The notes beneath the pieces are model-generated. The model was not told the origin of the DNA. It saw only the letters and a program-made list of their open reading frames with translations, and searched no databases. A stretch of DNA of 64,000 bases, from contig NZ_NEGZ01000001.1 in the NCBI RefSeq assembly GCF_002127585.1, positions 192,345 to 256,344 on the forward strand, given 5' to 3'. Positions 2,487 to 45,384 of the stretch are shown in pieces. Every line of letters starts with the position of its first letter. Position 1 is the first letter of the stretch. The stretch comes from Janthinobacterium sp. GW458P (GTDB lineage: Bacteria; Pseudomonadota; Gammaproteobacteria; Burkholderiales; Burkholderiaceae_D). The position numbers were made by a program, and so were the translations under genes.

Positions 2487-2540
2487 TATTTTATAACGGT
2501 GTTTCTGGATTCGAACTACGCCTCACGCGGCGTAAAAAAG

Positions 2541-2652
2541 GCCTTCAAAATCACAGCGAGCGGGGATGATTTGTGGCCGAGAAGCGCAAGCGCACTCTAG
2601 TGCGCTGAGCATCGCCGGCCGCAAGGCGCCCCGCGCAGCGGATTTTGAAGCC
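2541..2652. repeat. Structured intergenic repeat, copy A (next to ffh stop)
   Basis: A 112-bp element abuts the ffh stop codon (2653-2655). Outer arms: G2541 and 2543-2552 pair with 2641-2650 and C2652, with one C-C mismatch (2542 and 2651). A middle stem pairs TTGTGGCC (2571-2578) with GGCCGCAA (2617-2624), with one G-T pair. The apical 16-base palindrome is GCGCACTCTAGTGCGC (2590-2605). A second copy lies at 43055-43172. On the minus strand the outer stem runs directly into six T (complement of 2534-2539), so this copy probably also terminates ffh transcription. Origin and function are unknown; REP-like sequence or structured RNA module are both possible. Confidence 0.8.
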
Positions 2653-4020
2653 TTACCTCATCCCGGGCATCATGCCCTTCATGGAGCGCATCATCTTCAT
2701 CATGCCGCCGCCCGACAATTTCTTCATCATCGTCTGCATCTGCTCGAATTGCGTCAGCATGCGGTTCACTTCCTGCACCTGCACGCCGGCGCCGGCGGCG
2801 ATGCGGCGCTTGCGCGTCGCCTTGATCAGTTCAGGCTTGGCGCGTTCCTGCGGCGTCATCGAATCGATGATGCCGCACATGCGGCGCACCTGCTTATCGG
2901 CCTGATCCATGTTCTTGCCGCCTGCCGCCTGCTGGAACTGGGCCGGCAGCTTGTCCATCAGGTTGGCCATGCCGCCCATTTTCTTCATTTGCCCCAGCTG
3001 CGCCTTGAAGTCGTTCATGTCGAACTTGCCGCCGACCTTGATCTTTTGCGCCAGATCGGCCGCCGCCTTGCTGTCGACGCCCTTGCGCGCCTCTTCGACC
3101 AGCGCGAGGATGTCGCCCATGCCCAGGATGCGGTTGGCCATGCGGGTCGGGTCGAACGCTTCCAGGCCGTCGAGTTTTTCCGAGACACCGGCAAACTTGA
3201 TCGGTTTGCCCGTGATGTGGCGCACCGACAGGGCCGCACCGCCGCGCGCGTCGCCATCGAGCTTGGTCAGCACGATACCGGTCAGCGGCAGCGCATCGTT
3301 AAAGGCTTTCGCCGTGTTGATGGCGTCCTGGCCCAGCATGGCGTCGACGACAAACAGGGTTTCGATCGGTTTCACGGCGCCGTGGACGGCGGCGATTTCG
3401 CGCATCATCTCTTCGTCGATACCGAGGCGGCCCGCCGTATCGATGATCAGTACGTCGTGGTAGTGCTTTTTCGCCCAGTCCAGCGCGGCCAGCGCGATAT
3501 CGACCGGCTTGTCCGTGCTGGTGGACGGGAAGAAGTCGGCGCCCACCTGGGCCGTGACCGATTGCAGCTGGGCGATCGCGGCGGGACGGTACACGTCGGC
3601 CGAGACGGTCAGCACTTTCTTCTTCTTTTCTTCCTTCAGGTACTTCGCCAGCTTGCCGACGGTGGTGGTTTTACCCACACCCTGCAAACCGGCCATCAGG
3701 ATGATGGCGGGCGGCTGCTGGGCAAAGCTGATCTGCGACGCTTCCGGTCCCAGGTCGGCGCCCATCAGGGCGGCCAGCTCGCGCTGCACCACGCCCACCA
3801 GGGCCTGGCCTGGCGTGAGCGAGGAAATGACATCCTCGCCCATGGCTTTTTCTTTGACTTTGGCGATGAATTCGCGCACGGCGGGCAGGGCGACGTCGGC
3901 CTCGAGCAGCGCCAGGCGCACTTCGCGCAGCATGTCGGCGGTGTTCGCTTCGGTCAGGCGCGCCTCGCCGCGCATGGTCTTGACGACTTTGGCAAGCCGT
4001 TGGGTGAGATTATCTAGCAT
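2653..4020 (-). CDS. ffh: Signal recognition particle protein Ffh
   Basis: SRP54-type GTPase that, with 4.5S RNA, brings ribosomes making membrane proteins to FtsY. At 455 residues it has the usual length. The N domain covers about residues 1-90; the G domain carries the P-loop GLQGVGKTT at 111-119, then DTAGRLGIDEEMM, TKLDGDARGGAALS and the GxGD-like GMGDILALVEEA region. The C-terminal M domain is methionine-rich, ending in MMKMMRSMKGMMPGMR. ATG at 4020 is the only sensible start. Its upstream region contains a strong hairpin (4059-4110), and its downstream side ends in the structured repeat at 2541-2652. Confidence 0.98.
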   Translation of the reverse strand: MLDNLTQRLAKVVKTMRGEARLTEANTADMLREVRLALLEADVALPAVREFIAKVKEKAMGEDVISSLTPGQALVGVVQRELAALMGADLGPEASQISFAQQPPAIILMAGLQGVGKTTTVGKLAKYLKEEKKKKVLTVSADVYRPAAIAQLQSVTAQVGADFFPSTSTDKPVDIALAALDWAKKHYHDVLIIDTAGRLGIDEEMMREIAAVHGAVKPIETLFVVDAMLGQDAINTAKAFNDALPLTGIVLTKLDGDARGGAALSVRHITGKPIKFAGVSEKLDGLEAFDPTRMANRILGMGDILALVEEARKGVDSKAAADLAQKIKVGGKFDMNDFKAQLGQMKKMGGMANLMDKLPAQFQQAAGGKNMDQADKQVRRMCGIIDSMTPQERAKPELIKATRKRRIAAGAGVQVQEVNRMLTQFEQMQTMMKKLSGGGMMKMMRSMKGMMPGMR

Positions 4021-13882: not shown

Positions 13883-14046
13883 TTAAGTAACCCCCAATAA
13901 ATTATTGTGATTTCTGACTTCCATAACCGGCGCTGTGCGGTGTTGCCCGCAGCTAGCAGTGCTCGCACTGCGTCGCAGCGGGCGCCTTGCACAGCATCCG
14001 GTTCTGTTCGTCATAAATTCACAATAATTTCCCGAGGGTTACTTAA
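13883..14046. mobile_element. 164-bp palindromic MITE-like element
   Basis: A long imperfect palindrome. TTAAGTAACCC (13883-13893) is matched by GGGTTACTTAA (14036-14046). Further in, AAATTATTGTGA (13899-13910) and its complement recur, then AACCGG with GCTGTGC on each side, a GCCCGC/GCGGGC stem, and an apical GCAGTG-CTCG-CACTGC hairpin. The ends can be read as an AGTAACCC terminal repeat flanked by duplicated TA, the target duplication of IS630/Tc1-type elements. No open frame of note lies inside. A smaller GC hairpin (13842-13862) lies just left of it. The promoter of the next gene must lie within or right of this element. Confidence 0.6.
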
Positions 14047-42335: not shown

Positions 42336-43052
42336 ATGCCTGATACCGCTACCGCCCCACCGCGCTTTACCCACCTGATCAGCGACTGCGACGGCGTGCT
42401 GGTCGACAGCGAGGCCGTGGCCCTGCAGGCGCTGCTGGAATTGCTGGGGCCGCGCCTGCAGAACCTGCCCGAGGGCGTCACCCTGCAAGGCTTGATCGAG
42501 CCGCGCCTGGGCCAGCGCCTGGTGCCGCTGATGCAGGATATCTACAAGGAATTGGGTTTATCGCAATTGCCGGCCGACGAAATCATGGCCATCGGCAATG
42601 CCGTCGATGCGGCCTGCGATGCGCAACTGCGCGCCGTGCCCGGCGTGGCGCAGGCGCTGGCGGCGATCCCGCTGCCCAAGGCTGTGGCGTCGAACAGTGT
42701 CAGCGCGCGCGTGCTGTCGTCGCTCGAACGCACGGGCATGGCGCCGCTGTTCCAGAGCCGCGTGTTTACACCGGACCTGGTCGGCCACGCCAAGCCGCAT
42801 CCTGGCGTCTACCTGGCGGCAGCAAGCGCCTTCGGCGTGCCGCCTGGCCAGTGCCTGGTGCTGGAGGACAGCGTCACGGGCGTGACGGCGGCCGTGGCGG
42901 CGGGCATGACGGTCTTGGGATTCATCGGCGGCGGACATATCGCCCCCGGCCAGGAGGCGCGCCTGAAGGCGGCCGGCGCGCAGCTGGTCTTTGGCGACAT
43001 GGGCAGCCTGCCAGCGCTGGTGGCGGAACTGCTACAAGGCGCTACAGTGTAA
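42336..43052 (+). CDS. HAD-family hydrolase, phosphoglycolate-phosphatase-like
   Basis: A 238-residue haloacid-dehalogenase-type phosphatase. ATG 42336 follows TGGAG. LISDCDGVLVDSEAVALQAL carries the nucleophile Asp, with an alpha-helical cap typical of the PGMB/GPH group; AVASNSVSARVLSSLER holds motif II Ser, GHAKPHPGVYLAAASAFGV the Lys, and CLVLEDSVTGVTAAVAAGM the acidic motif III. The substrate is uncertain; phosphoglycolate and sugar phosphates are usual. Its stop codon is 2 bp from the structured repeat copy B. Confidence 0.9.
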   Translation: MPDTATAPPRFTHLISDCDGVLVDSEAVALQALLELLGPRLQNLPEGVTLQGLIEPRLGQRLVPLMQDIYKELGLSQLPADEIMAIGNAVDAACDAQLRAVPGVAQALAAIPLPKAVASNSVSARVLSSLERTGMAPLFQSRVFTPDLVGHAKPHPGVYLAAASAFGVPPGQCLVLEDSVTGVTAAVAAGMTVLGFIGGGHIAPGQEARLKAAGAQLVFGDMGSLPALVAELLQGATV

Positions 43053-43054
43053 CG

Positions 43055-43172
43055 ACACCTGACAAAACCGCAGCGAGCGGCAGTGATTTGTGGCCGAGAA
43101 GCGCAACCGTACTTTAGTACGGTGAGCATCGCCGGCCGCAAAGCGCGACGCGCAGTAGGTTTTGTCAGGTGT
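43055..43172. repeat. Structured intergenic repeat, copy B
   Basis: A 118-bp element fills the gap between the convergent HAD and hemL genes (5 bp from the hemL stop). Perfect 15-bp outer arms: ACACCTGACAAAACC (43055-43069) and GGTTTTGTCAGGTGT (43158-43172). The middle stem TTGTGGCC (43088-43095) pairs with GGCCGCAA (43134-43141), and the apical palindrome is CCGTACTTTAGTACGG (43107-43122). Compared with copy A at 2541-2652, 74 of 85 core bases (43071-43155) are identical and most of the differences fall in stems as paired changes. Confidence 0.85.
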
Positions 43173-43177
43173 GTACC

Positions 43178-44467
43178 TTACGCCAGGGTGGCGAAAACCT
43201 TGCGCGCAGCGGCGATGGTGGCGTCGATGACGGCATCGTCGTGCTGCGCCGAGACGAAGCCGGCCTCGAAGGCGGCCGGCGCGAAGTATACGCCTTCATC
43301 GAGCATGGCGTGGAAGAAGGCATTGAACTTGCTGCGGTCGCCGGCCATCATTTCCGCGTAGCTGGTCGGCGGCGTTTCGCTGAAATAGATGCCGAACATG
43401 CCGCCGATGGAATCGGCGCAGAAGACCACGCCTGCTTCCTTTGCGGCGGCGGTCAGGCCGTCGGCCAGGCGCTTGGCCGTGGCGCCCAGCTGCGCGTAGA
43501 AGCCAGGCTGCTGGATCAGTTTCAGCGTCGTCATGCCGGCCGCGACGGCCACCGGGTTGCCGGACAGGGTGCCGGCCTGGTAGACGGCGCCCAGCGGCGC
43601 CATATGGTGCATCAGCGCGGCGCTGCCGCCGAAGGCCGCCACCGGCATGCCGCCGCCGATCACCTTGCCCAGGGCCGTAAGGTCGGGCTTGATGCCGTAC
43701 AGCGCCTGCGCGCCGCCCAGAGCCACGCGGAAGCCGCACATGACTTCATCGAAAATGAGCAGGGCGCCGTGCTGCGTGCACAATTCGCGCATGGCCTGCA
43801 GGAATTCCGGGGTGGCTTTCACCAGGTTCATGTTGCCGGCCACAGGCTCGACGATGACGCAGGCAATTTCCGCGCCAAAGCTGTCGAAGGCGTCTTTCAG
43901 CTGTTCCACGTTGTTATAGTCAAGCACCATGGTGTGCTTGACGAAGTCTTCCGGTACGCCGGCCGAGGTCGGATTGCCGAAGGTGAGCAGACCACTGCCG
44001 GCCTTGACCAGCAGGGAATCGGCGTGGCCGTGGTAGCAGCCTTCGAACTTGACGATCTTGTCGCGTCCCGTGGCGCCGCGCGCCAGGCGCAGGGTGCTCA
44101 TGGTCGCTTCCGTGCCCGACGAGACCAGGCGTACCTGCTCGATCGACGGCACCAGACGGGTAATTTCCTCGGCCATCAGCACTTCGCCTTCCGTCGGCGC
44201 GCCGAAAGACAGGCCCAGTGCCGCCGCATCCTGCACCGCTTTCACGACTTCAGAGTGGGCGTGGCCGACGATGGCCGGACCCCACGAGCCGATATAGTCG
44301 ATATAGCGCTTGCCGTCCGCGTCCCAGAAGTACGGGCCTTCGGCGCGCGTGATGAAGCGCGGCGTGCCGCCCACGGAGCGGAAGGCGCGCACGGGCGAAT
44401 TGACGCCGCCTGGCGTGGTTTTTTGCGCGCGGGTAAACAGGATGTCGTTCTGGGAAGTCGTCGTCAT
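43178..44467 (-). CDS. hemL: Glutamate-1-semialdehyde 2,1-aminomutase
   Basis: A 429-residue PLP enzyme that makes 5-aminolevulinate in the C5 haem pathway. It starts [40 protein letters not shown] and [20 protein letters not shown] are family blocks, [20 protein letters not shown] holds the PLP-contacting Asp, and [20 protein letters not shown] the Schiff-base Lys. Full-length. It is preceded by thiD on the same strand; a thiD-hemL pairing is common in betaproteobacteria. Confidence 0.98.
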
Positions 44468-44526: not shown

Positions 44527-45384
44527 TTACTGGGCGCCGCGCTGGCGCTGCAGCTGGAACAGCCGGTTCGGCACCAGCTTGCCCATGCCGTGGCGCTGCG
44601 CATGCGCCAGCGCGCCGGTGGTGAATTCCTGCGCCGCCACCACGACTTGCGGCACATCGTCTTCATTCTCCGCCAGGGCCAGCAAGGCGGTGGCGGCCGC
44701 CGACAGGGTGCTGCCGGCGCCGTTGAAGATGCCGGGCAGGTGGCGCCACTCATCGTGGCGCACCACGCCATCCTCGCCGAACAGGGTGTTGGCGCGCAGC
44801 TTGCCTTCGCCCGTGCCCGACTTGCTGGCGTCGGCCGGCATGCCGGTGACGAGCACGTATTCGCAGCCTAGCGCCACCAGGTAATCGACGTCGTTCTGCA
44901 GGGTGTCGTCCGGATCGGCGTCGCGCCAGGTCTCGGCCAGGCGCTCCAGTTCCACCGGCGAGAGCACCAGCAAGGTCGTTTGCGGGATCAGGAGCTGGCG
45001 CACTGCCGTGAGGATGTCCTCGTCGTCCATGCCCTGTTCCGGCAGCGCCGAAATGAAGGGATCGAGGATCAGCGGCACGTTCGGATAGTCGGAGACGATT
45101 TCGGCGATGGCCGTGACGTTTTCCACGCTGCCCAGGGCGCCGATCTTGATGGCCGAGACGGACATGTCTTCCAGCAGCACGCGCGCCTGGTCGGAGACCC
45201 AGTCCGGGTCGATCGCCTGCACGTCTTCCACGCGCGCCGTATCACTGATCAGGAGACCCGTGGTGACGGACAGGCCATGGCAGCCGAAGGCTGAAAACGT
45301 GGCCAGGTCGGCCTGGATGCCGATGGCGCCGACCGGATCGGACACGCCGAAGCTTAATATGAGGGGAGAAGTTTGGTTTTGCAC
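44527..45384 (-). CDS. thiD: Hydroxymethylpyrimidine (phosphate) kinase
   Basis: A 285-residue ThiD-type kinase of thiamine biosynthesis, phosphorylating HMP and HMP-P. It starts [40 protein letters not shown] is the substrate-binding block (usual GIQAD), [19 protein letters not shown] and [14 protein letters not shown] follow. The ATP side is [20 protein letters not shown], where the usual GTGDTF-type motif reads NGAGST, a deviation from the common Gly-Cys-Gly-Asp pattern but still with the Gly-Ala-Gly anion hole. No thiamine riboswitch was seen nearby. Confidence 0.88.

Follow-up and report, generated by a model that had tools for sequence, protein, structure and literature searches.

A large, apparently undescribed family of folded repeats of about 120 bases beside stop codons in proteobacterial genomes

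Small palindromic repeats are common in bacteria, and both their spread and the retention of their fold are mostly unexplained. REP/BIME sequences have high copy numbers, are mostly extragenic and palindromic and lie near gene 3′ ends, and the passages on them report paired stem changes and GT pairs (PMC3733652, PMC2817692). The REP unit is 20-40 bp long with a terminal GTAG, and the rayt gene is flanked by two inverted copies. In the attC sites of integrons, which lie after a stop codon, the bottom strand recombines as a folded single strand, the stems vary freely while unpaired bases are conserved, and the R boxes follow the consensus GTTRRRY / RYYYAAC. ERIC (IRU, RU-1) is a dispersed repeat of ~127 bp with a stable stem-loop, whose orientation matters and which is described with 7-bp TIRs, TA termini and a TSD (PMC2229807). 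The same source describes YPAL/RU-2 of Yersinia as 168 bp long and not A+T rich, with internal inverted repeats, empty and filled sites, targets at dyad symmetry and a target duplication of variable size (PMC2229807). BOX repeats are stated to give the stop codon to 36 genes in one pneumococcal genome (PMC3049150).

The window analysed here, that is, the whole 64,000-nt stretch of Janthinobacterium sp. GW458P DNA, was originally predicted to hold a structured repeat in two copies with compensatory base-pair changes. A covariance model search found only two good copies within it: copy B at 43053-43174 (+ strand; model R1 positions 1-122; 141.8 bits, E 8.8e-42) and copy A at 2536-2656 (+ strand; 114 bits, E 5e-33), at the 3′ end of ffh. 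The best gap-free stretch shared by the two is 85 nt long with 74 identical positions, as had been aligned by hand, and the core 20-mer occurs exactly twice in the window, at 2568-2587 and 43085-43104, the chance expectation being 0.01 matches with 3 mismatches allowed. The four predicted outer-stem pair changes from A to B proved exact (T2551-A2642 to C-G, T2545-A2648 to A-T, T2544-A2649 to G-C and C2543-G2650 to T-A), and the two apical ones also hold (2590/2605 from G-C to C-G, 2593/2602 from C-G to T-A). The folding of both copies was far above that of shuffled sequence (z -8.2 and -6.3), and for copy B the strand originally named (+) is the folded strand. Gene coordinates agreed with the claim that both copies sit at stop codons. 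Copy B lies between the TAA at 43050-43052 of a HAD-like hydrolase gene (42336-43052, + strand, Pfam PF00702), which ends at its left end, and the TTA (a reverse stop) at 43178-43180 of a class-III aminotransferase gene, presumably hemL (43178-44467, - strand, Pfam PF00202), at its right end. At its right end, copy A overlaps the stop codon of ffh, a TTA at 2653-2655 (SRP54; gene at 2653-4020, - strand; Pfam PF00448, PF02978 and PF02881). Six T residues follow copy A in the gene orientation and no such run follows copy B; a terminator pattern scan returned none near copy A. The original prediction knew of no named family with this core, and a comparison with Rfam at gathering score likewise gave no match in the window. 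For nine related loci Rfam returned nothing of note: a single locus gave two MIR1437 rows with 44.9 and 35.8 bits against a gathering score of 168, and there was one further row, ctRNA at 23.9 bits. Elsewhere in the window, at 13883-14046, a different palindrome of 164 bp was observed, with 31-nt inverted ends TTAAGTAACCC...GGGTTACTTAA that are 84% complementary; it occurs at 11 places in the genome (20 rows minus 9 antisense echoes by our count, 74-100% identical) and is probably another MITE.

The element is a single long hairpin of ~122 nt, and the covariance model spans 122 positions. From the outside in, an outer arm of ~15 pairs is followed by a first internal loop, the mid stem, another internal loop and the apical stem-loop. 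On the + strand of copy B, the left outer arm at 43055-43069 pairs with the right outer arm at 43158-43172, near the stop of the opposing gene, as defined by the fold and by covariation (helices 1-2 for the left arm). The first internal loop has the family motif GTAGCGAGC on its left side (43070-43078; GCAGCGAGC in copy B) and CGCGCAGTAGG on its right side (43149-43159). The left side of the mid stem (43085-43095) faces 43134-43144, varying widely across genera and still pairing. The second internal loop is formed by GAGAAGCGCA (43096-43105) and GAGCATCGCA, and the conserved motif GAGCATCGC[A/C] occupies 43124-43133; these coordinates of the conserved motifs come from alignments A1 and A5. The apical hairpin, ACCGTAC-TTTA-GTACGGT by folding (43106-43123), is extended by 13-14 nt in some copies. 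The internal loops are nearly invariant, with a near-invariant GTAG in the left one and AGTAGG in the right one, while the stem sequences vary freely yet remain paired. The termini also differ between genera, though paired, and are more alike within a genus; the loops stay constant. No consistent signal of a second hairpin was found in the downstream tail, and by eye a separate terminator-like hairpin follows some copies.

The predicted number of two copies did not hold beyond the window. In the GW458P genome the element occupies at least ~138 places (147 covariance-model rows minus 9 antisense echoes by our count; 150 candidates scored) and forms a dispersed family with empty sites; a two-copy pair of structured RNA genes was ruled out by this number. 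Further copies in relatives, for which a search had been suggested, were found in the genus, the GTDB family and the class. Twenty-three of 24 same-genus relatives carry the element, with 1 to at least 87 copies each, and within the GTDB family matches at E <= 1e-6 come from 78 of the 145 genomes sampled and from 32 of 44 genera (own genus included). Genomes of one genus can differ strongly in copy number, with 57 in G179 against 1 in G100 and 17 in G059 against 1 in G098. Class-wide, a model built from 37 diverse members matched 19 of 369 genomes, one of them GW458P itself; all 17 class-level loci that were rescored matched at E <= 2e-9, and four class-level alignments, from two genomes of one family, shared the loop motifs and had a longer apical arm. 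In named genomes, a scan with an exact pattern gave at least 119 stretches; the 80 matches listed include Massilia, Telluria, Herbaspirillum, Ralstonia, Cupriavidus, Collimonas, Zoogloea, Thauera, Rubrivivax and one Solimonas. The idea of a genus-restricted family, first suggested by two weak matches in 16 other-genus genomes, was overturned by the matches in 78 of 145 genomes. Plasmid and phage collections gave no match (blastn, 1e-5). The titles and abstracts listed by literature searches contained no description of such a repeat family, which is not proof of absence. The element thus represents a large and apparently undescribed family of ~120-base folded repeats in many beta- and some other gammaproteobacterial genomes. 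Copies were also seen side by side, two at L179:13196-13444 and three each at L193:1649-2221 and L398:5522-5891.

The covariation of the stems was measured in 116 genus copies (93 from GW458P and 23 from relatives), aligned with the model. Two-sided changes were present at 29 of 37 pairs and 96.0% of the cells were paired, the covariation score being.356 versus.155 after shuffling and <=.075 after sliding. For 83 copies from other named genomes, in which the apical core was fixed by the search pattern, two-sided changes were found at 26 of 38 pairs and the score was.582 versus.172 and.096. Covariation exceeding both controls in the genus and in other genera bears out the selection for a folded structure that the original prediction had argued from two copies. 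Variability was similar in paired and unpaired columns (mean minor fraction.151 and.170, respectively). With shared and rare states pooled, two-sided Watson-Crick changes filled 412 cells of the 116-copy alignment, one-sided G.T 159 and one-sided A.C 60, counts to be read with the relatedness of the copies, which makes shared states not independent.

Which strand folds could be read from the wobble pairs. Since a G.T pair corresponds to an A.C mismatch on the complementary strand, the excess of G.T over A.C tells which strand folds. On the strand of the original prediction, with frozen wobble columns left out, 147 G.T stood against 58 A.C in the genus and 117 against 19 in other genera. By helix, in 73 ungapped copies with frozen columns included, the ratio was 47:25 in the outer, 149:33 in the mid and 11:5 in the apical helix. 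In 84 of 93 GW458P copies the fold of this strand is more stable than that of the sense strand, and with respect to the gene at whose stop codon the element lies, it is the antisense strand. Selection acts on the pairing of the hairpin, and the preference for G.T singles out one of the two strands.

The position of the element relative to genes, which were called with a home-made hexamer scorer, is similarly one-sided. All 123 genus copies are outside called genes. Both neighbours were called for 121 genus copies; a stop codon faces the right end in 103 of these, 90 of them within -13..+4 nt (at negative distances the stop codon is overlapped or provided by the element), and the left end in 56, of which 7 are within the same range. 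The stop of the right-hand neighbour faces the element in 78 of 95 GW458P copies studied, out of the at least ~138. Outside the genus, the right end lies -13..+10 from a facing stop in 56 of 72 cases and the left end in 14 of 55, and 7 of 129 placements, some of them orthologous to one another, are inside a called gene.

The element is widespread, is present or absent at orthologous sites, and combines stems that are free but paired with internal loops that are fixed. On these sequence patterns we tentatively prefer, at somewhat short of even confidence, to regard it as a non-autonomous dispersed mobile DNA repeat of ~122 bp that is recognised as a folded single strand. The next in line, a rather unlikely alternative, is a resident functional RNA, which would be either a 3′ UTR hairpin (a stabiliser, an RNase III or RNase E site, or one with a ribosome/tmRNA effect) or an antisense RNA. 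The fixed orientation at stop codons fits such an RNA, and an effect of ERIC on upstream mRNA is among the findings reported for that repeat (PMC2229807). The strand evidence points the other way: the G.T preference lies on the antisense strand, not on that of the mRNA, even where no neighbour would transcribe it, G.T:A.C being 71:31 where the left gene would transcribe the strand and 76:26 where it would not (Fisher p.53). A promoter of its own reading into the element was rejected, since no promoter-like signal pointed towards it (mean score 3.56 toward, 3.52 away and 3.87 shuffled, with an E. coli type matrix).

The rare changes bear on both readings. When states present in at most two copies per column were taken as rare (a cut-off of our own choice, frozen columns left out), the one-sided ones comprised 9 G.T, 24 A.C (p.014) and 47 other unpaired cells, a reversal of the bias, and breaks of this kind would be unexpected in a resident RNA. 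The two-sided rare states were mostly paired, as such an RNA would lead one to expect: 30 of 45, comprising 20 Watson-Crick and 10 G.T, with 15 unpaired. The paired share exceeds the 4/9 that we expected without selection, indicating that pairing is not wholly ignored after spreading, or that exchange between copies preserves it; a total absence of later selection does not agree with these paired states unless copy exchange creates them. The confinement of the wobble preference to inherited changes fits a fold that is required for spreading. The original prediction had left the choice between RNA and DNA structure. The antisense position of the folded strand, the transcription-independent wobble bias, the lack of a promoter-like signal and the rare one-sided changes that show no preference for G.T narrow this choice, and a single-stranded DNA mobility substrate is now the better, though unproved, candidate than a resident RNA.

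Mobility was also assessed from filled and empty sites. For 20 GW458P copies, the gene end was searched in five relatives with 20 matches in each. Ninety of these 100 orthologous places, belonging to 19 of the 20 chosen sites, were read; 16 were filled and 74 were without the full element, a proportion that speaks against a resident RNA. It is the whole hairpin, not a short unit, that separates full from empty sites. At site B, 30 loci comprised 4 full ones (own included), 2 with a 3′ remnant, 16 without the element and with both flanks placed (a few on short left-flank matches) and 8 with one flank unplaced. At site A, 29 ffh loci comprised 15 full ones (own included), 5 with a short hairpin at the corresponding position and 9 with neither, and this retention after ffh is in favour of a resident RNA. 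Some of the empty sites resemble deletion scars or mini-hairpins, so loss belongs to the pattern, and a given difference may be a gain or a loss. The short hairpins at the ffh 3′ end (L135, L136, L137, L139 and L140) have the loop GCGAGC, GCAAGC or GCGAAC; by eye, the outer arms are close to those of the full element in L136, and elsewhere the stem is changed with pairing kept. These hairpins suggested the idea that the core had been inserted into pre-existing host hairpins, which was not kept because the relatives at site B lack a hairpin and the arms are alike in most genus copies. Internal deletion accounts for the short ffh forms equally well.

The 16 orthologous filled pairs were compared part by part. 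Differences number 82 in 910 positions of the flanking gene, 24 in 288 and 27 in 272 of the two arms, and 113 in 1391 of the core. At three sites the mid-stem type or the 13-14 nt apical extension has changed while the outer arms each differ at 0-2 positions; a fourth site has differences in both arms and in the mid stem, and a fifth has 6 and 7 in the two arms and 1 in the 87 positions of the core. We read these module-wise differences as exchange between copies. A case of persistence is the junction of two genes, which we take from their translated ORFs to be pstB and phoU, in six Herbaspirillum-type genomes, four of them of one genus (L309, L312, L313, L314, L373 and L430), where the element is present with its fold intact. 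This looks like retention and counts, as such, against mobility and for a resident RNA. Two very different versions of the element were seen at this junction: L309 and L312 have flanks identical at 285/296 and 282/299 positions (~95%) and elements identical at 82/121. Among 44 pairs, taken from the fold of the consensus of the six copies themselves, 21 vary, 16 of them on both sides, and none is unpaired except one with a gap. A divergence of this size is too large for step-by-step compensation, and replacement of the element or its re-insertion at this site is likelier. The original prediction of paired, compensatory differences was confirmed as to pairing, and at one site some of the differences are whole-module replacements, not stepwise changes.

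If the element is mobile as a folded strand, a putative trans-acting enzyme would recognise it as a single DNA strand through the fixed internal loops and would attach its right end at, or directly beside, the stop codon of an oppositely oriented gene. Insertion at a stop codon would leave the protein intact, and mainly copies that fold on that strand would spread. After insertion, copies would decay, swap inner modules with other copies or delete the middle, and the upstream mRNA would be affected at its 3′ end, if at all, only secondarily. A neighbouring gene as the mobiliser was considered and set aside: no transposase was recognised by eye in the 25 largest neighbour-ORF clusters of 127 loci. 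No replication-strand bias was seen by eye among the copies listed for three genomes (G004, G045 and G019), taking the origin to be near base 1. IS200/IS605 elements have a strand preference, unlike the element copies in these three genomes, and this counts against the mobile reading, as do the failure to recognise a mobiliser and the lack of a clean target-site duplication.

One candidate enzyme is RAYT, a Y1 tyrosine transposase, and the element could be a long REP relative moved by it, which we consider improbable. The near-invariant GTAG and AGTAGG of the left and right loops would suit this explanation, as would the presence of PF01797 proteins in 31 of 31 genus genomes. The parts of PMC3733652 on REPs further place them near 3′ ends, note GT pairing and allow for rayt genes flanked by long non-REP inverted repeats, so that RAYT is still a possible enzyme. 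However, the GTAG is inside the outer arms and not at the terminus (alignments A1 and A5), and the length is 122 instead of 20-40. In GW458P the model search found no copy in the 6 kb around the RAYT at C89:46814, the copy nearest to C85:16136, among those listed, is at 44856, and no flanked rayt was found. By eye, RAYT content does not track copy number either: the ~240-aa type of RAYT is the only one in G015 (75 copies) and G021 (39 copies), and low-copy genomes have it too. A Y1 transposase gene (PF01797) of 239 aa was observed at L201:2473-3192, with no element copy in the 6 kb around it in GW458P, and similar Y1 transposases of ~240-250 aa occur in most genus genomes searched.

Still less probable, in our estimate, is an ordinary MITE that belongs to a DDE-type IS, duplicates a TNA-like target and finds this target in TGA/TAA stop codons. 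The element is MITE-like in being short, non-coding, dispersed and present or absent, and the flanks offer some encouragement, since TGA or TCA stands on both sides of several other-genus copies, Zoogloea included, and T-N-A is enriched on both flanks in GW458P. However, the duplication is weak: no clean target-site duplication was found, the best of 36 offset combinations giving 8/120 versus 2.7 expected in the genus and 8/80 versus 1.8 elsewhere. Conserved terminal inverted repeats were not found, as the termini differ between genera though paired, and variable termini leave nothing fixed at the ends for a sequence-reading transposase. The strand bias would also be left unexplained. An integron-type recombination site, attC-like or a relic, is very improbable although it too would fold the antisense strand directly after a stop codon with variable stems and conserved unpaired bases, because none of the 31 genus genomes has an integron integrase above the TIGR02249 cut-off, both R boxes occur together in 5 of 92 GW458P copies and 0 of 83 other-genus copies, and the copies are dispersed over the genome, e.g., after ffh, with no cassette array.

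The preferred reading, a mobile repeat recognised as a folded single strand, would matter beyond this family. If the folded single strand is the substrate, it points to a new transposase or recombinase in common proteobacteria and to a gene-sparing way of inserting at stop codons. The family itself offers a natural experiment, with many copies, empty sites and a strand readable from wobble pairs, in which shared and rare changes can separate selection during spreading from selection after insertion.

Compared with the described systems, the element resembles REP/BIME sequences in copy number, palindromic form, paired stem changes, GT pairs and an extragenic position near gene 3′ ends, and is set apart from them by its length of 122 nt, internal GTAG, fixed internal loops and strongly strand-specific fold. 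With ERIC it has in common the size, the stable stem-loop, the dispersal and the importance of orientation, and its variable ends set it apart from the description of ERIC. The likeness to YPAL/RU-2 lies in the base composition, the internal inverted repeats and the empty and filled sites; the 168-bp length and dyad targets differ, and the passages on YPAL/RU-2 in PMC2229807 do not mention family-wide fixed loops. The element resembles attC in the folded bottom strand, the free stems and the position after stop codons. It shares with REP/RAYT and attC the palindrome, the strand-specific fold and the vicinity of stop codons, and lacks defining features of each. It is conceivable, although we hold it to be doubtful, that the element represents a separate class of mobile elements outside REP/RAYT, MITE/DDE and integrons, which would be recognised purely as a folded strand through fixed loops, with variable paired ends, and delivered to stop codons, the folding strand being nearly always the template strand of the upstream gene.
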